Positions 9,018-19,514 of a stretch of DNA of 64,000 bases are shown piece after piece. Position 1 is the stretch's first letter; each line of letters begins with the position of its first letter. The notes beneath the pieces are model-generated. The model ran no database searches and was not told where the DNA came from. It saw only the letters and a list, made by a program, of their open reading frames with translations. The translations under genes and the position numbers were made by a program. Source of the DNA: Fluviicola taffensis DSM 16823 (lineage in GTDB: Bacteria > Bacteroidota > Bacteroidia > Flavobacteriales_D > Crocinitomicaceae); NCBI RefSeq assembly GCF_000194605.1, contig NC_015321.1:2170001-2234000 (forward strand), written 5' to 3'.

Positions 9018-9740
9018 GTGAAATTTAGATTACCATTTCTCAAGCAAAAAAGGTCTCCTGAAGACGTTGCATTCATTCGATTTTTTATAAATCGCTTTGG
9101 ATATAGACCAAAGAATATCGAACTGTTTTATCAAGCGGTAACTCATCGTTCCATTGCCTATCATGGACAAAAAGATTTTTCCAACGAGCGTTTGGAATTC
9201 CTCGGAGATGCCATTTTGGATTCCATCATTGCTGAATTCTTGTTTCAACGATTTCCAGAAGAAGACGAGGGGTATTTGACCAAAGTAAAATCAAAAGTCG
9301 TTTCGCGTAAAACACTCTCTGAAATTGGAGAAGAACTCGAATTGCGCTCTATTCTTCGCTACAACAAAGGTCGATCAATTAATTTATCTTCTTTGGAAGG
9401 AAATGCCTTCGAAGCCATCATTGGAGCTATTTATTTGGATAGTTCTTACGAGGAAACCAAGAAAATTATTTACAACCACATCTTCCGCAAGTATGTTGAT
9501 CTGAACAAAATCTTGGAAGAAGAAATTGACTTTAAATCCAAATTGTTTATTTGGAGTCAGAAACGAAGATTGGCTTTGGAATTTGTTGTATTGAGAGAAG
9601 AGAACAATCACGGGACTTGGTTCTACGAGGTTATTGTTCAGGTAAATTCTGTAAACTACGGAAAAGGTAGTGGAAATTCCAAAAAACTAGCTGAGCAAGC
9701 GGCAGCAAAAGAGACCTTGATTTTGATGGGGGAATTGTAA
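9018..9740 (+). CDS. rnc: Ribonuclease III
   Basis: RNase III cleaves double-stranded RNA in rRNA and mRNA processing. The 240-residue protein has the signature NERLEFLGD (residues 56-64) with metal-binding Glu and Asp, a second acidic site in FEAIIGAIYLD, and a C-terminal double-stranded RNA-binding domain from about residue 172 to the end (GKGSGNSKKLAEQAAAKETL). The start is a GTG at 9018, seven bases after the fabF stop, giving MKFRLPFLKQKRSPED. It is the last gene of the acpP-fabF-rnc unit. Confidence 0.95.
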   Translation: MKFRLPFLKQKRSPEDVAFIRFFINRFGYRPKNIELFYQAVTHRSIAYHGQKDFSNERLEFLGDAILDSIIAEFLFQRFPEEDEGYLTKVKSKVVSRKTLSEIGEELELRSILRYNKGRSINLSSLEGNAFEAIIGAIYLDSSYEETKKIIYNHIFRKYVDLNKILEEEIDFKSKLFIWSQKRRLALEFVVLREENNHGTWFYEVIVQVNSVNYGKGSGNSKKLAEQAAAKETLILMGEL

Positions 9741-9833
9741 ACTCTTTTCTCTTTCACAACAAAAAATGTGGTTTCCCGCAATGGCTTTTCGGTATTTATA
9801 CTGATGCTTGGTAATTGAATAAGTTGTAGATTT

Positions 9834-9842
9834 AATCGCAAC
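9834..9842 (+). promoter_or_regulatory. Shared AATCGCAAC element, copy 1
   Basis: This nine-base motif lies 25 bases before the ATG at 9859. It recurs upstream of three lipoprotein genes of the same cluster (14476, 15898, 16609), always 25-53 bases before a start codon. It could be part of a common promoter, operator or leader. Confidence 0.35.
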
Positions 9843-9877
9843 TAATTTATTACTACTCATGAAAACCACAAATTTTA

Positions 9878-9887
9878 CCCCCCCCCC
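9878..9887 (+). repeat. Homopolymeric C10 tract in the signal-peptide coding region (candidate phase-variation tract)
   Basis: Ten consecutive C follow the ATG at 9859 after 19 bases. With ten C the frame from that ATG ends at TAA after 12 codons. With eleven C it would run MKTTNFTPPPIFLKGLLMLG into the downstream gene and complete a normal signal peptide. Slippage here would therefore switch the gene on and off. A sequencing error of one base is the alternative. Confidence 0.7.
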
Positions 9888-9908
9888 ATTTTTTTAAAAG
9901 GCTTACTA

Positions 9909-10910
9909 ATGCTCGGCTTTAGCTGCATTTCTGCACTATCATTTGCTCAATCCAACACACTTCCGACAACTGGAAATGTAGGTATTGGAACAACATCACC
10001 CTCTGAACGACTTACCGTGAATGGGTCAGCACGAATCGATTCTACGCTAACTGTTCGCGATTCGATGATCGTTGACCGAGATGCACACATTAAAAGCGAC
10101 TTACGTGTAGATGGAAAAACCCTCTTGGGAGATGACCTACATGCATCTAAAAACGTCTTCTTAGAAGAAGGCAACTTACAAATCAAATCCTTGGGAGATA
10201 CAAGTCTTCCAGAAGATGGGATCTTAACGATTGATGCTTTGGGCAAAGTAAAAAATGGCGGCGATTTGAAGAGTCTGCTCTATCGTTCTGAACCAGCAAC
10301 GAATTGTGCAACAGATATACACGGTAATCTCCTTGAAACCGCTCCTTTTTGGCAAGCTACAGCCAATCCGCAACGCATGTTTTTGATTAAAACTCCATGT
10401 TCTCCTGATCCACGATTGGGAGTTGGTGTGAGACCAGATGCTAAATTTCATGTGCGGCTAGATCTAAATTCCCAATTACACCCCCTATTGATTGAAAAAA
10501 CCCTAAGCAGTAACCCAAGTGTACTACCCCGAAAATTGATGCAGTTGGACCACACAGGATTGCTGTATGCACGCGAAATAAAAGTGAATCTAGACAACTG
10601 GGCAGATTATGTGTTTGATAAAAATTACTCTTTAATGCCTTTGAACGAACTGCAGCAGTTTATCAACCAAAACAAGCATTTACCCAATGTGCCAAGTGCA
10701 ACCGAAATGACAACTAATGGTTTGAATATAGCTGAAAACAGTAAAATGCTGATGGAAAAGGTGGAAGAATTAACGCTATACGTGCTTCAGATCAATGAGC
10801 GGGTAAAAACTCAAGAAGAATTGGTGAAACAACAGCAAGAAACCATTCGTTTGCAGCAGGAATTGATTTTACAAATTCAACAAGCACAACAGAAACCTGT
10901 AAAACTGTAA
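9909..10910 (+). CDS. Tail-fibre-like secreted protein (start region frame-shifted at a C10 tract)
   Basis: As read, the frame starts at the ATG at 9909 with MLGFSCISALSFAQS, a signal-peptide core and cleavage site with no positive n-region. The missing n-region is encoded from the ATG at 9859, one base out of frame across the C10 tract. The mature protein begins GNVGIGTTSPSERLTVNG, the repeat found in Bacteroidota tail-fibre or S74-like proteins. A strand-rich middle follows, and the C-terminus (LPNVPSATEMTTNGLNIAEN, then a Q/E-rich coiled coil over residues 278-330) resembles the chaperone-of-endosialidase type end. No S74 catalytic residues could be assigned. It lies three bases upstream of the hydrolase gene, so the two form one unit. 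The function is unknown. Confidence 0.7.
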   Translation: MLGFSCISALSFAQSNTLPTTGNVGIGTTSPSERLTVNGSARIDSTLTVRDSMIVDRDAHIKSDLRVDGKTLLGDDLHASKNVFLEEGNLQIKSLGDTSLPEDGILTIDALGKVKNGGDLKSLLYRSEPATNCATDIHGNLLETAPFWQATANPQRMFLIKTPCSPDPRLGVGVRPDAKFHVRLDLNSQLHPLLIEKTLSSNPSVLPRKLMQLDHTGLLYAREIKVNLDNWADYVFDKNYSLMPLNELQQFINQNKHLPNVPSATEMTTNGLNIAENSKMLMEKVEELTLYVLQINERVKTQEELVKQQQETIRLQQELILQIQQAQQKPVKL

Positions 10911-10913
10911 GTT

Positions 10914-13820
10914 ATGAGAAAGTTCTTAGTAGCTTTCCTCTTGCTTGTGGGTTCACAGGCTTGGGGACAAACGGATACCCTTCAATTTACAACAAGAAGG
11001 CAAGTTGCTGATACAGTATTAGGTCTTTTAGATCCAACTATTTACGGTCCAGCTTTGATTGAACGTTCAATGACAGAAGACTCACTTTTGATTAATCAAC
11101 TACAATATAGTGATTATTCAGGTGTATCTCAGGGATGGAGCTGGCTTCAGGCGTATTCTGATATAGCTTTAAGCTATGTTGATTCTACCTATATGTATTC
11201 TGACACAGCATTGTTACATCGTTTGGAGAATTTTCAATTGGACATGCGAGACACCTCCGGATTGGATCAGCTGAAACAACCTTTTGGACTGTTATTGCAT
11301 CAGGTAAGTCGCATTGATACAACTCTACTCAATACTCTTGGAGTGTTCTCAAACGATCAAAGCCAATTGAAATTGAACGAAAGTATTGATGAAAGTACAA
11401 TCTATCAGAAAGTAATGTTGAAAAGTGCAGCAATTTTGGAACTGGATGGTGAACATGGCTACGATCAAGGAACCATTTATTACACAGAAGACTTCATTTC
11501 TACCAGTCCGGATATTACAATTAATTCTATTCATCTGAATATGGGAACTGGTTTTCAGCCCTTTTCAGCAACAGCTAATCAAATCACCTATTCCATTCTG
11601 AAAGATTTTCAACTTGGACAAGCTGCCATCGAATACATGCTCAACGGGGTAAGTATATCCGATACACTTTCTTTTTATGTCTCTACAAGGACATATAAGT
11701 ATAAGAACACCGAAAAATCTGCAAGTCAATGGGATTCACCTGTTCGGTATTTCGGGAATGATTTACAGTATTGTATTTTATATGGTTGTGGGAATGTGAA
11801 TGAGAAAATAAGACGTCCTGTCATTTTTGCTCCGCCTTACAGGCCTATTTCGCAATTTCTTTTATCTTTTAATAAGTATTACGATCAATTTGATTTTAAG
11901 TCATTGCTGACCTCTTTAGCAGAAATGGGATATGATGTCATTTTTGTCAAAGAAACTCCAGGAAATAGAGGTATTAATCATGCTGGGAGTATTTTGGGGG
12001 ATTTCATCAAATTTATTAACGAAAAGAAAAAGGAACACTTTCCAAATGAAGACTGGGAAAATGTGGTCATTGGTTTTAGTGCTGGCGGACAACATTGGCG
12101 CTATGCATTGAAGAAACTGGAAAAAGAGCACATGGAAACTGGAACGCCACATCACCACACACGTCTCTATATTCCTTTTGATTCTCCACATTGGGGAGCA
12201 AATGTACCCATGTTTGCTCAGGCTGTTTATCGAGATATGTATGCATTCAGTATGCCTGCCTTATTTGCATACGAAAGTTTAACGGATGCTGCATCTAAAG
12301 ATATGTTGATGAATCACATTATTGGTAGCAATCTAACAGAAGATAATCATGTATATACGATTACTCCTGCTCCTGCATCTGAAAAGTTGAATATTTCCAA
12401 TCAATTGGATAATTGGTTCAATCATCAATTCACCCCAATGAATGATTTGCGCAAAACTTTTCCAACCTTCACCAGAAATGTCGCTATATCAACTGGAAAT
12501 AATTCTGCCAACTACGATTCACAATATGGGTTATTCCCTGGAATGAAATTATTTTCACAAAACGTTTTTGCCCCTGCTTGGTATGGTGGAAAAGCATTCA
12601 ACAGAAGTATCTACAGTTCACAATCTGGCACAGCAAGACAAGTATTTAAACGAGAAGACTTGTATTTGTTCTTAGGTTTTCCCCTATGGTTTAAACGATT
12701 CTACAAAACAAATAATGCCTATGAGTGGGATTTAGCACAAGGTGGATACAAGGATGAATTTTATGACGAAGGTGCTATGAATTGGAATGCAGCTCCTTTG
12801 TCTGGCATTCCCGTTGGGGCTATCAATATTTTGGTTGCTTCAGCTCAAAACATTCTACTTCCTTTTGGTCCATTATGGGGGACACAGCACTATAAAGGAC
12901 ATATTTCTTTTCTACCAATGGTTTCTGCATTGGGAATAAACCCTTCCATTTGGCAGAATAATAACCTGTATTATAATCTAAAAGATGAAGGATTGATGTT
13001 TAATCAATTTGATATTCAAAACAATCCAGCATCTAATCTATATGGTTATCCAAATTTAGCTCATCCAACCAATCATTTCAACATTACTCCTTTTGAGGCG
13101 GTGTATTGTGATCCGCAAACCTACGAGCACATTAAAATGCAGGCTTCCATAGATGAAAATGATGGAATGGACGATGTTTACCTAGTACATACCCGCAATT
13201 TTATTCTAGATGAAGTAGAAGCAGATGTCGTTTATCTGCAGAATAAAATAATTGGTAAGAACCACCTGCAATGGGATCCAAATTACCGCTACAAAGCTTG
13301 GTACAAAGCATACGATCGTATCATTTTTGGCGCATCGGTGACTCCAAAGACAGATACTGGAGCCTACATCATTGAATCGAGCGGAGAAATAACAGCCTAT
13401 GCCTGTAATGGTATTCATATAACCCCTGGGTTTCATACACAAAGTGGCAGCAGATTCCACGCTTATGAGTATTGTGATGGCTGTTCGCGGCCAAGGGAAG
13501 GAGGAAAAAGCGCAAGCAATACAGAATCTGACCAAGAATCAAACGAACTACAAATTTCGCTCTTGGATAACGACAATAAAGAAGCTAATCTTGCCATCGA
13601 TCTTCAAATCTTCCCAAACCCTGCAACAGAAGGATTTACCGTTTTGTTTCCGCTTGCTGCAGGAAACTATTCCATTTTTGATTCAAACGGTAGAATATTT
13701 AAGCAAGGACCCATTGCCGAAAACAACAAAAAGCTGTACATTGAATTACCCAAAGGGGTCTATTTCCTGAAATGGAACGAAAACGAACAAGTAATCACTA
13801 AAAAAATAATCGTATTATGA
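10914..13820 (+). CDS. T9SS-exported alpha/beta hydrolase (lipase-like), 968 residues
   Basis: A signal peptide (MRKFLVAFLLLVGSQAWGQ) precedes about 280 residues of unassigned sequence. A hydrolase domain follows: RRPVIFAPPYRP with a GYDVIFVKE strand, the nucleophile elbow GFSAGG (residues 387-392, Ser389), and the lipase-like FDSPHWGANVP. Near residue 830 there is an ITPGFHTQSGSRFHAY repeat typical of Bacteroidota secreted proteins. The last 75 residues (LQIFPNPATEGF to KKIIVL) are a type A T9SS sorting domain. The general acid and histidine of the triad cannot be placed by eye. The stop overlaps the start of the first lipoprotein gene (ATGA), which implies translational coupling. A copy of its last 24 codons reappears at 15173. 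The substrate is unknown; lipid or ester is the best guess. Confidence 0.8.
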   Translation: MRKFLVAFLLLVGSQAWGQTDTLQFTTRRQVADTVLGLLDPTIYGPALIERSMTEDSLLINQLQYSDYSGVSQGWSWLQAYSDIALSYVDSTYMYSDTALLHRLENFQLDMRDTSGLDQLKQPFGLLLHQVSRIDTTLLNTLGVFSNDQSQLKLNESIDESTIYQKVMLKSAAILELDGEHGYDQGTIYYTEDFISTSPDITINSIHLNMGTGFQPFSATANQITYSILKDFQLGQAAIEYMLNGVSISDTLSFYVSTRTYKYKNTEKSASQWDSPVRYFGNDLQYCILYGCGNVNEKIRRPVIFAPPYRPISQFLLSFNKYYDQFDFKSLLTSLAEMGYDVIFVKETPGNRGINHAGSILGDFIKFINEKKKEHFPNEDWENVVIGFSAGGQHWRYALKKLEKEHMETGTPHHHTRLYIPFDSPHWGANVPMFAQAVYRDMYAFSMPALFAYESLTDAASKDMLMNHIIGSNLTEDNHVYTITPAPASEKLNISNQLDNWFNHQFTPMNDLRKTFPTFTRNVAISTGNNSANYDSQYGLFPGMKLFSQNVFAPAWYGGKAFNRSIYSSQSGTARQVFKREDLYLFLGFPLWFKRFYKTNNAYEWDLAQGGYKDEFYDEGAMNWNAAPLSGIPVGAINILVASAQNILLPFGPLWGTQHYKGHISFLPMVSALGINPSIWQNNNLYYNLKDEGLMFNQFDIQNNPASNLYGYPNLAHPTNHFNITPFEAVYCDPQTYEHIKMQASIDENDGMDDVYLVHTRNFILDEVEADVVYLQNKIIGKNHLQWDPNYRYKAWYKAYDRIIFGASVTPKTDTGAYIIESSGEITAYACNGIHITPGFHTQSGSRFHAYEYCDGCSRPREGGKSASNTESDQESNELQISLLDNDNKEANLAIDLQIFPNPATEGFTVLFPLAAGNYSIFDSNGRIFKQGPIAENNKKLYIELPKGVYFLKWNENEQVITKKIIVL

Positions 13821-13974
13821 GGGTGTTATTGATTGTATTATTGGGGATTCTGTTCGTTTCATGTGGTAAGAAACGATCCATCCATATTACGGCTACAAAT
13901 GCTGCTACTGGTGAGCGTTATGCAGGATTGCAATATTATATAGTTTCATCTACTACCAGTGGAAACGGTGAAAA
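13744..13974 (+). repeat. Perfect direct repeat, copy A (hydrolase 3' end plus lipoprotein 5' end)
   Basis: About 231 bases here are identical to 15173-15403 at an offset of 1429 bases. The unit covers the last 24 codons of the hydrolase gene and the first 50 or so codons of the lipoprotein gene, and shows that a duplicated block contained the gene junction. Confidence 0.85.
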
Positions 13975-14443
13975 ATACAAAACCGAAAAATCTGGATTTT
14001 TAAACGAGAATGGAGAAGCCACTGAGATTATTCGAGAGAAACAATACCGAACATACGCTGTGCGTGTTGTTGAACCTGAAAGCAGCTGTTACAATAAAGA
14101 AATTACCATGTATTTTGGCGGAGCGAATGACAAAAATGGACATTTTGATTTTGAATTTGCGGAGTGTGCTTATTTGAAATTCAGATATTATAACTCCTCC
14201 TGTCAGGGGGGGGGGGATCATATAGAAGTTACAAGAATTACAAACTTAGCAGGTTATGTGGGATTTTATAATCCAGCTACTTACGATGGTTGCGCGGATT
14301 ACACCATGCCAAACTTTGTTCAAGTTCCAATGGGTAATTGGTATTTCACATGGGATGTAACCAAAAATGGAGTAACAACTTCATATTCTGACACTATCTT
14401 TTTAGCCGCTGGAGAATATAAGTATTACGAATTCAATTATTAG
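13817..14443 (+). CDS. Tandem lipoprotein 1 (with in-frame G11 tract)
   Basis: A lipoprotein of 208 residues: MRVLLIVLLGILFVSC gives a lipobox with the acylated Cys16 followed by GKK. The N-terminal half (to about residue 125) is nearly identical in the four paralogues (ITATNAATGERYAGLQYY, KYKTEKSGFLNENGEA, YAVRVVEPESSCYNKEI) and looks like a beta-sandwich of the Ig or carboxypeptidase-regulatory type. The C-terminal half is divergent but keeps two Cys and a final GEYKYYEFNY. The junction is a G11 tract (CQGGGD). It overlaps the hydrolase stop by four bases, so its product may bind or protect against that enzyme. I recognise no named family. Confidence 0.8.
   Translation: MRVLLIVLLGILFVSCGKKRSIHITATNAATGERYAGLQYYIVSSTTSGNGEKYKTEKSGFLNENGEATEIIREKQYRTYAVRVVEPESSCYNKEITMYFGGANDKNGHFDFEFAECAYLKFRYYNSSCQGGGDHIEVTRITNLAGYVGFYNPATYDGCADYTMPNFVQVPMGNWYFTWDVTKNGVTTSYSDTIFLAAGEYKYYEFNY
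14206..14216 (+). repeat. In-frame G11 tract in lipoprotein 1
   Basis: Eleven G encode part of Gln-Gly-Gly-Gly-Asp. Loss of one G brings a TAG three codons later, and gain of one brings a TAA about 18 codons later, so slippage would remove most of the C-terminal half. Paralogue 3 has the same tract at the same codon. Confidence 0.75.
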
Positions 14444-14475
14444 TTTTCAATAAAGGGTATAACCAATATATGGAA

Positions 14476-14484
14476 AATCGCAAC
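14476..14484 (+). promoter_or_regulatory. Shared AATCGCAAC element, copy 2
   Basis: The motif lies 40 bases before the start of lipoprotein 2. A weak -7-like CAATTTTG follows at about 14497. Confidence 0.35.
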
Positions 14485-14515
14485 TACTATTTCCTCAATT
14501 TTGTAAAAAAATGAA

Positions 14516-15139
14516 ATGAAAAAACTGTTCACATTCATCCTTTTCTTGTTTCTACTTGTTTCATGTGGTAAAAAACGAACTATCGTTATTACCGCAACAA
14601 ACGGTGCTACTGGAGAACGTTATGCAGGACTGCAATACTTTGTTGTTTCCTCTACTACCAGTGGAAATGGAGAAAAGTACAAAACCGAAAAATCTGGGTT
14701 TTTAAACGAGAATGGAGAAGCTTCAGAAATCATTCGAGAGAAGCAATACCGAACATACGCTGTGCGTGTTGTTGAACCTGAAAACAGCTGTTACAACAAA
14801 GAAATTACCATGTATTTTGACGGTGCGAATGACAAAAATGGACATTTTGATTTTGTATTTGCAGAATGTGCTTATTTGAAACAAAATATTGTAAATGTTA
14901 ATTGTGAAAGATCAACAGATATTTTTAATATAAGAGATCGCTTCACTTATTCTGAATGGTCAGGTTGGTCTTATGATATTATGGGATGTTTCTCAAACAC
15001 TGGAGGAGATTATTCTAAAGTTCCTGCAGGGAAAAGATACTTTCAGTGGAGAGCTATTAGGCAGTCTGGCGTTATAGAAGGTTTAGACAGTATCGAATTA
15101 GCTCCCGGAGAGTATGGGACAATATCAATACATTATTAA
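14516..15139 (+). CDS. Tandem lipoprotein 2
   Basis: The 207-residue lipoprotein has its own signal sequence (MKKLFTFILFLFLLVSC, then GKKR), different at DNA level from copies 1 and 3. Residues 25-125 are almost the same as in the paralogues. The C-terminal half (NIVNVNCERSTDIFNIRD to EYGTISIHY) is the most divergent of the set and has no G tract. Conserved points are the Cys of the NC pair, a P-G-x-x-Y-W pattern (PAGKRYFQW), and the GEY near the end. It has its own upstream AATCGCAAC element and lies 72 bases after lipoprotein 1, so it may have its own promoter. Confidence 0.8.
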   Translation: MKKLFTFILFLFLLVSCGKKRTIVITATNGATGERYAGLQYFVVSSTTSGNGEKYKTEKSGFLNENGEASEIIREKQYRTYAVRVVEPENSCYNKEITMYFDGANDKNGHFDFVFAECAYLKQNIVNVNCERSTDIFNIRDRFTYSEWSGWSYDIMGCFSNTGGDYSKVPAGKRYFQWRAIRQSGVIEGLDSIELAPGEYGTISIHY

Positions 15140-15172
15140 AATAAGTTTTACTTAAAAACAATGTGGTTTTTC

Positions 15173-15245
15173 AATTACCCAAAGGGGTCTATTTCCTGAA
15201 ATGGAACGAAAACGAACAAGTAATCACTAAAAAAATAATCGTATT
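15173..15245 (+). pseudogene. Duplicated 3' fragment of the hydrolase gene (sorting-domain tail)
   Basis: The bases are identical to the end of the hydrolase gene and encode LPKGVYFLKWNENEQVITKK followed by the last residues IIVL and a stop. No start or upstream gene body is present. The fragment was carried along when the junction of hydrolase and lipoprotein 1 was copied to make lipoprotein 3, and it keeps the ATGA overlap. Confidence 0.85.
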
Positions 15246-15403
15246 ATGAGGGTGTTATTGATTGTATTATTGGGGATTCTGTTCGTTTCATGTGGTAAGA
15301 AACGATCCATCCATATTACGGCTACAAATGCTGCTACTGGTGAGCGTTATGCAGGATTGCAATATTATATAGTTTCATCTACTACCAGTGGAAACGGTGA
15401 AAA
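15173..15403 (+). repeat. Perfect direct repeat, copy B
   Basis: This is the second copy of the 231-base block at 13744-13974. Beyond it, similarity to lipoprotein 1 continues with scattered changes to the G11 tract at 15635. Confidence 0.85.
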
Positions 15404-15881
15404 GTACAAAACCGAAAAATCTGGATTTTTAAACGAGAATGGAGAAGCTTCGGAAATCATTCGAGAGAAGCAATACAGAACATACGCTGTGCGTGTTGTT
15501 GAACCTGAAAACAGCTGTTACAATAAAGAAATTACCATGTATTTTGACGGGGCGAATGACAAAAATGGGCATTTTGATTTTGAATTTGCGGAGTGTGCTT
15601 ATTTGAAGCTGAATATTAATAATGTGAATTGTCAGGGGGGGGGGGATTATTTTAAACTATATCATTATGGAAGTGATGTAGGATTTTTGAATGTTTCTCA
15701 AGGTAGCCCTATTCGAGAGGGGGGGGGCTGTTATTCATACACAGGGAGCGATTTTTCGGACGTTCCAATGGGGAGACGCTTCTATAAATGGGAAGTAATA
15801 AGAAATGGAATTACGAATATTTATTATGACACACTTTATTTAAGTCCTGGAGAGTATAAGACGTATGATATAAACTACTAA
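15246..15881 (+). CDS. Tandem lipoprotein 3 (with G11 and G9 tracts)
   Basis: The 211-residue lipoprotein has a signal sequence identical to copy 1 (acylated Cys16, then GKKR). The N-terminal half is the conserved domain. The C-terminal half (LNINNVNCQGGGDYFKLY to PGEYKTYDINY) is closest to copy 4. A G11 tract begins at 15635, at the codon homologous to that in copy 1, and a second tract of nine G at 15719 encodes EGGGC. Both are in frame as read. The gene is preceded by a fragment of the hydrolase gene rather than by the AATCGCAAC leader, so it either uses read-through from upstream or is poorly expressed. Confidence 0.8.
   Translation: MRVLLIVLLGILFVSCGKKRSIHITATNAATGERYAGLQYYIVSSTTSGNGEKYKTEKSGFLNENGEASEIIREKQYRTYAVRVVEPENSCYNKEITMYFDGANDKNGHFDFEFAECAYLKLNINNVNCQGGGDYFKLYHYGSDVGFLNVSQGSPIREGGGCYSYTGSDFSDVPMGRRFYKWEVIRNGITNIYYDTLYLSPGEYKTYDINY
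15635..15645 (+). repeat. In-frame G11 tract in lipoprotein 3
   Basis: Eleven G after TGTCA encode Gln-Gly-Gly-Gly-Asp. Gain of one G gives a TAA within four codons, and loss of one gives a TAG within about 12 codons. Confidence 0.75.
15719..15727 (+). repeat. In-frame G9 tract in lipoprotein 3
   Basis: Nine G encode Glu-Gly-Gly-Gly. The homologous place in lipoprotein 4 (16434-16439) has only six G, so length differs between paralogues. Confidence 0.65.
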
Positions 15882-15969
15882 ATAATCAAGTACTGAAAAT
15901 CGCAACAAGTCTTTCAAATCATTGACCTACATTTGATTAAAATTGTACTTATGAGAAACCTGCTATTCA
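15880..15969 (+). repeat. Duplicated leader, copy 1 (upstream of lipoprotein 4)
   Basis: About 90 bases, from TAAATAATCA through ATGAGAAACCTGCTATT, are nearly identical to 16591-16680, with only three or four differences. The unit contains AATCGCAAC (15898-15906), a TTGACC box, TAAAATTG as a weak -7 element, and the first codons of the gene. Confidence 0.8.
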
Positions 15970-16592
15970 TTTTATTTGGAACTCTATTTCTCGTTTCTTG
16001 TGGTAAGAAACGATCCATCCATATTACGGCTACAAATGCTGCTACTGGTGAGCGTTATGCAGGATTGCAATATTATATAGTTTCATCTACTACCAGTGGA
16101 AACGGTGAAAAATACAAAACCGAAAAATCTGGATTTTTAAACGAGAATGGAGAAGCCACTGAGATTATTCGAGAGAAACAATACCGAACATACGCTGTGC
16201 GTGTTGTTGAACCTGAAAACAGCTGTTACAACAAAGAAATCACTCAGTACTTTGATAGCCCTTATGATGTCGACGGTACCTTTACATTTGAGTTTGCGGG
16301 ATGTGCGAATTTGAAATTGAATATCAATAATATAAATTGCCAAGGAGCAAGTGATTATTTTAAACTATATTATATGGGGAGACAAGTAGGAGGACAAGGT
16401 TCAAATATCGTAGGAGCACTTTCCCTTCAAGGAGGGGGGTGTTATTCTTATACTGGAAATGATTTCTCTTCTGTTCCTATGGGAAATATGTATTGGAAAT
16501 GGGAGGTAACAAGAAATAATGTGACCACAACATATTATGACACGATTAATTTCTCAGCAGGAGAATACAAAATATATGATATAAACTACTAA
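15951..16592 (+). CDS. Tandem lipoprotein 4
   Basis: I start the gene at the ATG at 15951, giving a good lipoprotein signal (MRNLLFILFGTLFLVSC); an upstream in-frame TTG at 15933 would add a hydrophobic stub inside the leader repeat. The 213-residue product has the conserved N-terminal domain; its DNA from 15999 to 16218 is identical to 13862-14081 of copy 1. The C-terminal half resembles copy 3 (LNINNINCQGASDYFKLYY, GGGCYSYTGNDF, YDINY) but has GAS in place of the poly-G-coded GGG, so this paralogue lacks the long tract. Confidence 0.8.
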   Translation: MRNLLFILFGTLFLVSCGKKRSIHITATNAATGERYAGLQYYIVSSTTSGNGEKYKTEKSGFLNENGEATEIIREKQYRTYAVRVVEPENSCYNKEITQYFDSPYDVDGTFTFEFAGCANLKLNINNINCQGASDYFKLYYMGRQVGGQGSNIVGALSLQGGGCYSYTGNDFSSVPMGNMYWKWEVTRNNVTTTYYDTINFSAGEYKIYDINY

Positions 16593-16680
16593 ATAATCAC
16601 GTACTGAAAATCGCAACAAACCTTTCAAATCATTGACCTACATTTGATTAAAATTGTACTTATGAGAAACCTGCTATTTA
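16591..16680 (+). repeat. Duplicated leader, copy 2 (upstream of the truncated lipoprotein)
   Basis: This is the second copy of the leader at 15880-15969, including AATCGCAAC at 16609-16617 and the codons for MRNLLF. Confidence 0.8.
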
Positions 16681-16811
16681 CATTATTTGTTGTTTTAATT
16701 GCTTCTTGCAAAAAACTGGATAAGGACAACCCCATTGAGTTCAAAATCAAAGCTCACATTCCTTATAGCGATGAACCCATTTCAGGGGTTAAATACACCA
16801 TCTTCCTATGA
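16662..16811 (+). pseudogene. Truncated fifth lipoprotein (49 residues)
   Basis: The reading frame encodes MRNLLFTLFVVLIASC, then KKLDKDNPIEFKIKAHIP and SGVKYTIFL before TGA. The signal sequence is a proper lipobox. The short mature part aligns with the first beta strands of the paralogues (ITATNAATGERYAGLQYYI against IKAHIPYSDEPISGVKYTI) and then stops. It is most simply a 3'-deleted paralogue. The TGA overlaps the next ATG (ATGA), so it may still act as a translated leader for the next gene. Confidence 0.65.
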
Positions 16812-17497
16812 AGCTACTATTTCTATTATTGACCAGTTCTATGCTCTTTGCTTGTACAATTACAAAGCGGAACTTTAATTCAGGGTATCATATTGAATGG
16901 AGAAAATCTCAACAAATGATTGAAAAAAACGAGAATTATGAAAGTAAAAATTTGAGTATTGAAATTAATCCAACAGAATCTTTATGTAATATTTGTGAAA
17001 CACAAAAAGTAATTGCCAAAAATAATCACCCTACTGATTCAGTACAAATACTTGAATTGTCGCATCAAGAAAATAGGCTAACCGAAAATATATTTCAAAA
17101 TCTCATCTCCAAGACCCAAAAAATTTCAAATCTCCAAAGTTGGGATAAAAAAATCGCGAAAAAACAAGAACCCATTAATCATAAAATTGCCGTTGAACAG
17201 GCTCCAAAAAAAGTAGATAAATTCACTTGGTTTGCTCTTGGATCTTTCATTTTAATGATCCTGACTTTAATGTGGATTTCTATAAATCCTTTTAGTGTAG
17301 TATTCCTCGTTCTTGGGTTACTATTGATCACATTTTCAATAATCTCAATAGTTAGAATCCGAAAAAATCCAATGAGGTATAAATCTAAATGGTTGACTTG
17401 GACTCTTTTTGCATTGGGAACTGTTGTATTTGGAGCATTGTTATTTCTGCTGGTCTATTATCTTCTAATTGTGACTAATAACGTTGATTTGTTTTGA
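16808..17497 (+). CDS. Lipoprotein/membrane protein with three C-terminal helices, unknown function
   Basis: The 229-residue product starts with a lipobox-like signal (MKLLFLLLTSSMLFAC). A hydrophilic segment of about 120 residues has a NICETQ motif. Three hydrophobic helices follow (FTWFALGSFILMILTLMW; SVVFLVLGLLLITFSII; WTLFALGTVVFGALLFLLVYYLL). This plan is common in Flavobacteriales proteins of unknown role. It starts inside the stop codon of the truncated lipoprotein. I do not recognise a named family. It is the last gene of the accessory cluster. Confidence 0.65.
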   Translation: MKLLFLLLTSSMLFACTITKRNFNSGYHIEWRKSQQMIEKNENYESKNLSIEINPTESLCNICETQKVIAKNNHPTDSVQILELSHQENRLTENIFQNLISKTQKISNLQSWDKKIAKKQEPINHKIAVEQAPKKVDKFTWFALGSFILMILTLMWISINPFSVVFLVLGLLLITFSIISIVRIRKNPMRYKSKWLTWTLFALGTVVFGALLFLLVYYLLIVTNNVDLF

Positions 17498-17667
17498 AAT
17501 TAAATATCATAAAATAGTTATTTCTTTCGCTCCGAAAAAAAGCATGAAACACTGTTTGAAAGCTGGCCAACTTTATTACTGAATCATTAAATGATTGTTT
17601 TCAGTATACGCTCCCTATTGCCATTTCCGCTAAAATGTGTACCTTCACGTGAACAAAATTTAAGTGG

Positions 17668-18099
17668 ATGAGCAAACAAAAGCGTCATGTACTTTCTTTA
17701 GAAACAGCAATCGACTTTGAACTAATTGGAATCTGTTCTCACCACAGTGACTACCGATTGGCTTGGGGAATCAATAAAATTTTGGGTTTGGAGCTTACTA
17801 AAAGCGAAGAGCCATTTGTGATTCAATCAAAGAAAGGTTCTATTGTTTCGCAACACAGTTTCCATGTGTTTATCGATGAGGTAGACCACATGGAATGGTA
17901 TTTAATTAAGAATAAATCGGAAGGTAAATTCTTGATTCCTGAAAAAAATCAAATCGATTATTTTTTAATTCTACGGGAAAATATCCTCCATGAATTAGAT
18001 GATTTGCTTGATAAACTTCGTGAATCAAACAGTGTAATGGCAGCCTATATATTTGAAGCAACCGCCATTCCTTCCGCAGAACTAATAATTTTCGAATGA
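17668..18099 (+). CDS. IPExxxVDY family protein
   Basis: The 143-residue protein contains FLIPEKNQIDYFLIL at about residues 88-102, which matches the pattern that names this Bacteroidota family (IPE, three residues, then V/I-DY). The family is found mainly in Flavobacteriia and has no known biochemical role. The stop overlaps the pyk start (ATGA), so the two are translationally coupled, an arrangement that hints at a link with glycolysis without proving it. Confidence 0.8.
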   Translation: MSKQKRHVLSLETAIDFELIGICSHHSDYRLAWGINKILGLELTKSEEPFVIQSKKGSIVSQHSFHVFIDEVDHMEWYLIKNKSEGKFLIPEKNQIDYFLILRENILHELDDLLDKLRESNSVMAAYIFEATAIPSAELIIFE

Positions 18100-19514
18100 A
18101 AAAAACAAAAATTGTAGCAACATTAGGTCCTGCTACCGCAAAAAAAGAAGTTTTAAAACAAATGATATTAGATGGTTTGAACGTGTGTCGTTTGAATTGT
18201 TCGCACGGTTCTCACGAAGATCACAAGAAAAGTATCGATATGATTCGTGAAATCAATAAAGAAACAGGTTTGAATGTTTCGATTTTGGCAGATTTACAAG
18301 GTCCAAAAATTAGAACGTACGAAATGGAGAACAATGGAGTGATGATGGAAGAAGGTTCTATCGTTACCATTGTAACAGAACGCATTACCGGTACAGCCGA
18401 AAGATTTGGGATTAGTTATTCCTTAATGCCGAGAGATGTTTTACCTGGAGAACGCATTCTATTGGATGACGGGAAATTACAAATGGAAATTGTATCCACC
18501 AATGGGGAATCTGAAATCAAAGCGAAAGTCATTCATGGTGGAATTCTTTCCTCTAAAAAAGGAGTAAACCTTCCAAATACCAAAATTTCATTGCCTTCAT
18601 TGACTGAAAAAGACCGCGAAGATTTAGAGTTTGCTCTCAATAATGATGTAGATTGGATTGGATTGTCGTTTGTGCGTTCTGCAAGAGATATTATTGAATT
18701 GAAACATATTATTTCCAATCGTCAGGCAAAAGCTTTGGTTGTTGCTAAAATTGAGAAACCAGAAGCGATTGATGATATTGATGAAATCATTAAAGTAACA
18801 GATGCATTGATGGTTGCACGTGGCGACTTGGGTGTTGAAATTCCTTACCAAAATGTTCCTTTGATTCAGAAAATGTTGATTCGAAAAGGACACCAGCATG
18901 CGAAGCCAGTTATTGTGGCAACTCAAATGATGGAAAGCATGATTACGAATATTACGCCTACTCGCGCAGAGGTAAATGACGTTGCCAATGCGGTTTTGGA
19001 TGGTGCAGATGCAGTGATGCTTTCAGGAGAAACATCCGTTGGTAAATTTCCAAATGAAGTCATTCGAACAATGGTAAACATTGTAGATGAAATGGAGAAA
19101 TTTGATGGGATTTATCACAAGGATCAACTTCCAGATAAGTCTCAGTCGCGTTTTATTTCCGATTCAATTTGTTTTAATGCGTGTCGTTTGGCTCAACGTG
19201 TTGAAGCAGATGCAATCATTACGATGTCTTATTCAGGATATACGTCCTATAAAATTGCTTCTCAGCGACCAAATGCGCCCATTTTCGTCTTCACAGGAAA
19301 CAAACAAATCATTACGCAGTTGAGTTTGGTTTGGGGCGTGCGCGCGTTTTATTACGACAAGAAAGTAAGTACCGATCATACCATCGCAGATATTAAGTAT
19401 TTGTTGGCAAAAGAAGGATTATTGAAACAAGGCGATTTAGTGATTAATATAGCATCAATTCCAATCGAAGAAAATGGAAAATCGAATATGTTGAAGTTGA
19501 GTTATGTGGATTGA
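18096..19514 (+). CDS. pyk: Pyruvate kinase
   Basis: This enzyme makes ATP and pyruvate from phosphoenolpyruvate, the last step of glycolysis. The 472-residue protein begins with the family motif KTKIVATLGPAT and carries LNCSHG, ADLQGPKIRT, the active-site AKIEKPEAID with its catalytic Lys, the metal site MARGDLGVE, and VATQMMESMI. The C-terminal allosteric domain is present. Its start overlaps the stop of the IPExxxVDY gene by four bases. Confidence 0.97.
   Translation: MKKTKIVATLGPATAKKEVLKQMILDGLNVCRLNCSHGSHEDHKKSIDMIREINKETGLNVSILADLQGPKIRTYEMENNGVMMEEGSIVTIVTERITGTAERFGISYSLMPRDVLPGERILLDDGKLQMEIVSTNGESEIKAKVIHGGILSSKKGVNLPNTKISLPSLTEKDREDLEFALNNDVDWIGLSFVRSARDIIELKHIISNRQAKALVVAKIEKPEAIDDIDEIIKVTDALMVARGDLGVEIPYQNVPLIQKMLIRKGHQHAKPVIVATQMMESMITNITPTRAEVNDVANAVLDGADAVMLSGETSVGKFPNEVIRTMVNIVDEMEKFDGIYHKDQLPDKSQSRFISDSICFNACRLAQRVEADAIITMSYSGYTSYKIASQRPNAPIFVFTGNKQIITQLSLVWGVRAFYYDKKVSTDHTIADIKYLLAKEGLLKQGDLVINIASIPIEENGKSNMLKLSYVD

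Follow-up and report, generated by a model that had tools for sequence, protein, structure and literature searches.

Secreted effectors followed by strings of immunity paralogues are known from the type VII secretion system (T7SS) of the Gram-positive Staphylococcus aureus, where TspA and EsaD precede arrays of TsaI and EsaG. The TsaI proteins share their first 75 residues and vary at the C-terminus, 3' fragments of tspA lie inside the array, and esaG paralogues recombine with each other (PMC9484751, in the passages drawn on here). In the type VI secretion system (T6SS) clusters of Vibrio cholerae, displacement of an effector leaves orphan immunity genes behind, and arrays arise mainly by the gain of different immunity types and not by duplication (PMC5361080, likewise in part). 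Among the Bacteroidota, the TANFOR polymorphic toxins have an immunity gene 3' of the toxin gene and a proposed link to the type IX secretion system (T9SS), whose role in bacterial competition is offered as speculation in the passages used (PMC7073777). Here, we describe a locus in a 64,000-nucleotide stretch of the Fluviicola taffensis DSM 16823 chromosome (NC_015321.1, positions 2,170,001 to 2,234,000; hereafter the window, in which positions are counted unless stated otherwise), where a fibre-like gene, a gene for a T9SS-tagged hydrolase-like protein and tandem lipoprotein genes carry long runs of G or C. With even confidence, we read it as an exchangeable, phase-variable and recombining T9SS effector-immunity cassette, in which, by analogy with the systems above, the hydrolase would be an antibacterial effector and the lipoproteins its immunity proteins.

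The locus resembles the T7SS arrays in the succession of effector-type gene and paralogues, in the conserved first and variable C-terminal parts of the latter, and in the effector 3' fragments between them; recombination between paralogues is shared with EsaD/EsaG. It differs in coding for lipoproteins where TsaI is a multi-spanning membrane protein, and in its fibre-like gene, which both staphylococcal systems are without; switching by homopolymers goes unmentioned in the passages of PMC9484751 used here. Compared with TANFOR toxins, the hydrolase has its own T9SS tag and is followed by lipoprotein arrays; TANFOR is not among the Pfam/NCBIfam hits of the window proteins, the presence of a TANFOR model in these libraries being unchecked.

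The gene order in F. taffensis is fibre-like gene, hydrolase, lipoproteins 1-4, a truncated lipoprotein gene of a different type and a gene of the CTITKR type (Table 1). Three nucleotides (nt) separate the fibre gene from the hydrolase gene, and the latter overlaps lipoprotein 1 by 4 nt. This order, put forward as a cluster by an earlier sequence-only reading, is a real unit, as it recurs in many relatives of what we take to be the Crocinitomicaceae type. Profile matches among 200 family genomes stood at 38 for the lipoprotein, 32 for the hydrolase and 72 for the fibre, the C-terminal part of which is widely shared. We refer to genomes by G-numbers (G000 being the genome with the window) and to fetched stretches by L-numbers; loci were chosen from search hits and not at random, a few weak or broken hits (e.g. 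G044) being left out. Among 26 hydrolase open reading frames (ORFs), representing 25 distinct genes because L039 and L060 come from the same contig, 25 have a fibre gene at most 900 nt upstream, the exception being L050, whose hydrolase is truncated. The distance from hydrolase end to lipoprotein start is no more than 50 nt in 24 of the ORFs; L053, with a gap of -109, differs in where the ORF start was called, and L068 has its hydrolase divided between two ORFs. At 13 further in-family loci, a lipoprotein follows directly in 10 and a fibre gene precedes in nine; the remaining three are L170 (a long, distant protein with two lipoproteins upstream), L160 (none) and L161 (contig end).

In G000 itself, the layout is complete at four loci, and at a fifth the lipoprotein is broken. 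Furthermore, the layout is shared by 13 T9SS-tagged effectors, chosen via fibre hits, which are unlike the hydrolase outside the sorting domain; the fibre gene is at most 6 nt away in 10 of them and a lipoprotein at most 50 nt away in 10, and two families stand out. At about 2.126-2.133 Mb of G000 (L077 2956-10003), a fibre gene is accompanied by a T9SS cargo of 782 amino acids (aa), whose sole recognised domain is the sorting domain, and by tandem lipoproteins alternating between 140 and 158 aa; this locus represents another effector family of the same layout. Lipoproteins without an adjoining hydrolase, away from contig ends, were found in L043, L046, L047, L055, L056 and L058, and the arrays of the window, L050, L051, L052, L053 and L057 have displaced hydrolase 3' ends inside or next to them.

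Outside the family, nine of 14 loci with distant hydrolases have an adjoining lipoprotein, or as many as five in tandem, up- or downstream (that of L148 being recognised by eye), and the fibre profile matched at none of the 14. Lipoproteins beside the distant hydrolases of L145, L146, L148, L149 and L153 have acidic, surface-type leaders, those of L155 and L156 do not. In L145 (1237-4576), five tandem lipoproteins, DUF6252-like below the cut-off, lie upstream of the hydrolase, and lipoproteins take the upstream position in L146, L148, L149 and L153 as well. The surface-type leaders would suit a nutritional or surface-remodelling lipase, with lipoproteins that hold the enzyme or its products and with variability caused by phage or predator pressure on exposed parts. 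F. taffensis has at least 230 potential T9SS effectors (PMC10202324, in part), from which we infer that most need not be weapons. We nevertheless consider such a lipase unlikely: it would predict neither orphan lipoproteins, displaced effector 3' ends and differing cassettes at one site, nor two further effector families with the same layout.

The effector-immunity reading is strengthened by the site itself. The island of about 7.9 kb lies between rnc and pyk; rnc is present in all 14 genus genomes, in 12 of them on the same contig as pyk. Alignment to nine cassette-free sites breaks off at 9719-9749 and restarts at 17617-17674, and nine of the 13 other congeners are without fibre and hydrolase there: in G070, G080, G088, G046, G118, G059, G112 and G124 the rnc-pyk gap is too short for a cassette, and in G104 it contains the CTITKR gene alone. 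Three congeners (G096, G010 and G129, the last over two contigs) carry other versions of the cassette at rnc-pyk, while in G030 the site is broken by contig ends. Two more chromosomal sites hold differing cassettes or orphan lipoproteins, depending on the species, one with a thioesterase/glycosyltransferase-like flank (L041, L048, L064, L046) and one with a nuo-like flank (L062, L067, L069, L043; flank names by eye).

Recombination, the second half of the earlier description of the locus as slippage-controlled and recombining, is strongly supported by these differing cassettes, by array-wide homogenisation of the lipoprotein N-domains and by 622 nt that are identical between two fibre genes about 81 kb apart, with diverging flanks. 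The near-identical paralogues, repeated leaders and duplicated gene fragment that had been noticed are all there: lipoprotein copies 1 and 3 share 231 identical nt, copies 1 and 4 share 220 nt, and the last 25 hydrolase codons reappear within the array. The truncated gene had been misread, as it is not a cut copy of its neighbours but belongs to another lipoprotein type (CKKLDKDNPIEF). It is apparently the remnant of a different cassette, of the type found at rnc-pyk in G129 and G010, and its 90% identity to the G129 lipoprotein at the same site suggests that the present cassette has replaced that type. The CTITKR gene is perhaps an older resident of the site; genes of its type also stand beside arrays in L045, L064, L068 and L069.

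A comparison of 96 lipoproteins, 185-262 residues long and without the duplicate L039, revealed a half-conserved pattern; an array here is one fetched stretch, so that L051 pools three neighbouring cassettes. Within arrays, N parts have an identity of 0.64 and C parts one of 0.36 (154 pairs); the corresponding values for pairs from different arrays are 0.27 and 0.29 (4406 pairs). For 57 of 88 proteins the closest N part comes from their own array, and for 20 of 88 the closest C part does. C types (at least 60% identity) common to arrays occur in 104 of 1461 pairs within an N class and in none of 2945 across classes, the classes being defined by motif rules of our own. Over 22 pairs, the hydrolase correlates with the N-domain of the first lipoprotein (Mantel r = 0.90, P 1e-4) and with its C-domain (r = 0.47, P 1e-4), and the N part tracks the hydrolase inside class A (0.70, P 0.0025) and inside class B (0.61, P 0.002). 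A hydrolase region that follows the first C-domain was sought by sliding windows and rejected, the peaks being weak (r 0.31 and 0.34, uncorrected for the number of windows). They lie in both classes near residues 660-740 or thereabouts (window 12891-13133), a possible specificity region that is not significant as tested.

Effectors hardly ever found without partners, orphan partners, displaced 3' ends, half-conserved tandems and exchange at fixed sites together lead us to the effector-immunity reading, as for TspA/TsaI and, in part, the V. cholerae arrays; this signature was out of reach of the earlier reading. As to the effector, the claim of a T9SS hydrolase is backed by a type A sorting domain and by hydrolase motifs. 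S389 (in GxSxG or GxSxx), D423 and H739 are invariant in 22 in-family proteins and align with distant homologues. A Pfam search of the window protein gave no hydrolase-family match; its distant homologues L147 and L145 reach DUF676 (28.6 bits, cut-off 20.3) and PGAP1 (24.5, cut-off 24.3). Because of these matches and the conserved Ser/Asp/His, we regard it as a putative lipase/esterase-like serine hydrolase. In a search of solved structures, the sorting domain was the sole match of the hydrolases, L147 had none, and the two other effector families matched the sorting domain weakly, their other rows being at chance level; PADLOC found no anti-phage defence match for six proteins. Polymorphic toxins are defined by diverse C-terminal toxin domains behind a constant N-terminal part (PMC3482391); neither Por secretion nor type IX nor Fluviicola came up in a term search of that paper's first 300,000 characters. 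The hydrolase classes differ over most of the protein, the sorting domain forming the C-terminus, with no constant N-part and swapped toxin tip; whole effectors, not C-terminal tips, vary behind the fibre gene.

Table 1. Features of the cassette and its flanks in the window.
Feature	Position	Strand	Remark
rnc (ribonuclease III), left island flank	9018..9740	+	name read from translation, not family search
Accessory island	9741..17616	.	segment missing from cassette-free congener sites
Fibre leader: conserved ATG and signal-peptide start	9859..9908	+	out of frame with body as sequenced
C10 tract between start codon and fibre body	9878..9887	+	body frame open 340 codons; others stop after 2, 10
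Fibre-like body: GNVGIGTT start, coiled-coil-like end	9909..10910	+	weak PHROG similarity
622-nt stretch identical to fibre gene at G000 2.098 Mb	9999..10620	+	interpreted as recent gene conversion
968-aa secreted serine alpha/beta-hydrolase-like protein	10914..13820	+	S389, D423, H739 conserved
T9SS C-terminal sorting domain (Por_Secre_tail)	13608..13814	+	E 3.4e-11; TIGR04183 E 1.5e-12; above cut-off
Lipoprotein 1 (mature CGKKRSIHITATNA)	13817..14443	+	overlaps hydrolase stop
G11 tract, lipoprotein 1, C-domain start (CQGGGD), in frame	14206..14216	+	alternative frames stop after 2, 17 codons
Lipoprotein 2, tract-free	14516..15139	+	
Displaced hydrolase 3' end	15172..15246	+	residues 944-968, 96% identical; same overlap joins lipoprotein 3
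Lipoprotein 3	15246..15881	+	
G11 tract, lipoprotein 3, same codons as lipoprotein 1, in frame	15635..15645	+	alternative frames stop after 2, 11 codons
G9 tract (REGGGC), lipoprotein 3, in frame	15719..15727	+	alternative frames stop after 19, 22 codons
Repeated leader ahead of lipoprotein 4	15883..15978	+	
Lipoprotein 4, G run of at most 6	15951..16592	+	
Repeated leader, second copy	16594..16689	+	
Truncated lipoprotein, other type (CKKLDKDNPIEF)	16662..16811	+	90% identical to G129 over 98 nt
CTITKR-type lipoprotein/membrane protein	16808..17497	+	without fibre/hydrolase there in G104
pyk (pyruvate kinase), right island flank	18096..19514	+	name read from translation, not family search

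The four G/C tracts that had drawn attention to the locus are all present and are the sole runs of seven or more in the whole window. G000 (one contig, 4,633,577 bases) has six runs of nine or more, four of them in this locus, which makes up 0.17% of the genome; of its 11 runs of eight or more, five fall within the five loci of the cassette system (0.76% of the genome). Under a first-order model of the window, 3.9 runs of at least nine are expected genome-wide against the six observed, 0.16 of at least 11 against two, and 0.006 of at least nine inside the locus against four. The probability of four or more of the six falling in the locus is 1e-10 on the assumption of independent runs, from which the two G11 runs depart, being paralogous. 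The enrichment is chiefly a local one, with no clear genome-wide excess. The tracts lie within coding sequences or where these begin, as had been claimed, and locally exceed what chance would give. One correction is needed: C10 follows a conserved ATG (9859) and precedes the ORF start that had been listed (9909). With frames read as they stand downstream, a length change at each tract would break the frame.

The homologous lipoprotein codons carry a G tract of 7, 9 or 11 across four species: G9 in frame in UBA5869 (L039/L060, a metagenome-assembled genome), G7 in frame in G036, and G7 in two copies in G030, of which one keeps the frame and the other loses it at the tract. In a second lipoprotein family (EPTKWEKIAGHYKV), three species have G10 (L120), G11 (L121) and G10 (L122) at the same RIGGGD codons; the gene with G11 is out of frame and comes from a draft genome, N bases standing close by. 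The 14 genus genomes, our own included, contain 20 runs of nine or more, of which three at contig ends of G030 were set aside, one being a C48 and a likely artefact. Eight of the remaining 17 are in genes of the cassette kind, four in the window, two in G129, one in G096 and one in G118, the last in a lipoprotein without an adjoining effector. The C48 opens G030 contig 73 (L117 1-48) ahead of a lipoprotein C-domain; the assembly there is probably either in error or broken at a long tract.

The other two runs of at least nine in G000 (644202-644210 and 2912269-2912277; L079, L095) were rejected as parts of the system, no such cassette adjoining them. They lie about 57 and 50 nt (hand-counted) upstream of likely start codons of lipoprotein genes (MNKINLLFF..SCSSSEKK and MKHFNLSSV..SCKKDKTQ), so that every one of the six runs falls within, or a short way ahead of, a gene for an exported protein; these two are possible promoter or leader switches.

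At the fibre-like gene, the tract separates leader and body. The ATG-K leader is found in four other fibre genes of G000 and is in frame in three (L040, L041, L077). It is out of frame in the window gene (C10) and in a paralogue at 118 kb (C8), the bodies of both being open throughout; with the sequence as it stands, neither gene would be on without the use of an internal start, and the candidate at 9909 has a poor signal peptide. One tract length in three would put leader and body in the same frame. Downstream of the C8 gene come a protein of 232 aa, a T9SS cargo of 823 aa and a lipoprotein (G000 about 118.2-123.3 kb; L076 3223-8313), the last broken by a frameshift distant from any tract. 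A phage tail fibre was considered and rejected: the PHROG similarity is weak (E 0.003 to 0.008), and the gene is in an operon with T9SS cargo. That an open fibre body is kept behind an out-of-frame leader would also fit programmed transcriptional or translational slippage, yielding a fixed share of in-frame fibre and no switching of the DNA. We hold this to be very improbable, as tract lengths vary among paralogues and species in the way that DNA slippage predicts.

A minor but serious possibility, compatible with effector and immunity functions, is that the tracts are passive, being chance runs of GGG/CCC codons or base-call errors, with the fibre gene simply broken. The missing genome-wide excess and the many tract-free relatives fit this, and both C tracts give the same wrong body frame, as systematic undercalling would. 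It accords poorly with the crowding of four of the six runs in one locus, with two runs of 11, with the same codons being affected in four species and with two fully open fibre bodies. Moreover, GGG makes up 12% of the Gly codons in 11 window genes, yet three stand in succession at two sites and two at a third. Slippage control, the first half of the earlier description, is a plausible reading backed by local enrichment, by frame positions and by tracts that differ in length and frame at homologous sites in other species, less strongly than recombination.

Several observations weigh against our effector-immunity reading. L160 in the family and five of the 14 distant hydrolases have no neighbouring lipoprotein. 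Within a class, the first C-domain is unlinked to the hydrolase (r = 0.20, P 0.12, n = 9; r = -0.20, P 0.94, n = 8), contrary to a simple specificity model, and linkage alone could account for part of the N-domain correlation. Most of the fetched relatives are without any run of seven or more, and, even though the F. taffensis RW262T genome was finished with 351x Illumina and 23x 454 reads (PMC3236050, in part), assembly errors could underlie the tract states. Finally, judged by published surface-export signals (PMC5080379, in part), the acidic signal is missing in 94 of 95 lipoproteins, with two acidic residues at +2 to +6 in 1/95; calibration on SusD-like_3 found no such protein in the genome. 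A periplasmic inhibitor would then meet a toxin arriving from outside. The missing signal also bears on antigenic variation, in which surface lipoproteins would shuffle or switch C-domains against phages or grazers, the hydrolase being incidental. A conserved and a variable half, recombination in arrays and tracts are what it would lead one to expect; it is decidedly unlikely in our view, given the missing signal, the tie between N-domain and hydrolase, and a hydrolase almost never found without lipoproteins.

Under the effector-immunity reading, the fibre-like protein and the hydrolase would be produced from a single coupled operon, and the T9SS would export the hydrolase, whose target may be a lipid or ester of competitor cells. 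The tandem lipoproteins would be envelope-held inhibitors, cognate and non-cognate. Arrays may grow when an incoming hydrolase-lipoprotein unit ousts the resident, whose 3' end and lipoproteins stay, and C-domains may be swapped through recombination within the near-identical N-domains. The C run in the fibre leader would set the frame of the first gene and, probably by polarity, the expression of the coupled hydrolase as well; the G runs would decide whether a lipoprotein has its C-domain. In a bolder version, which we advance tentatively, stuttering of the DNA would control the attack operon and, separately, the immunity array of a fibre-accompanied T9SS lipase weapon, and cassettes would be exchanged between species at fixed chromosomal sites.

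In the contingency loci of pathogens, poly-G/C tracts set the frames of envelope genes and paralogues recombine; the locus described here shares both features and joins them to a T9SS effector-immunity-like cassette. Among T6SS lipase effectors, the Tle families have lipoprotein immunity proteins, the Tli families, and the likeness of a lipase-type effector beside lipoproteins is evident, the difference being the T9SS tag. In the titles and abstract openings of the literature searched, there was no T9SS effector with tandem lipoprotein immunity, no tract switching of such genes and no demonstrated T9SS killing between bacteria. The parts are of known kinds, and their combination is undescribed in that literature. 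The locus is a concrete candidate for the involvement of the T9SS in interbacterial killing, in a cultured and sequenced type strain. If the bolder version is true, it would be the first T9SS effector-immunity array and the first with phase-variable immunity, which would be added to the strategies of microbial self-protection, and a single clone of F. taffensis would split into subpopulations that differ in their state of attack and immunity.

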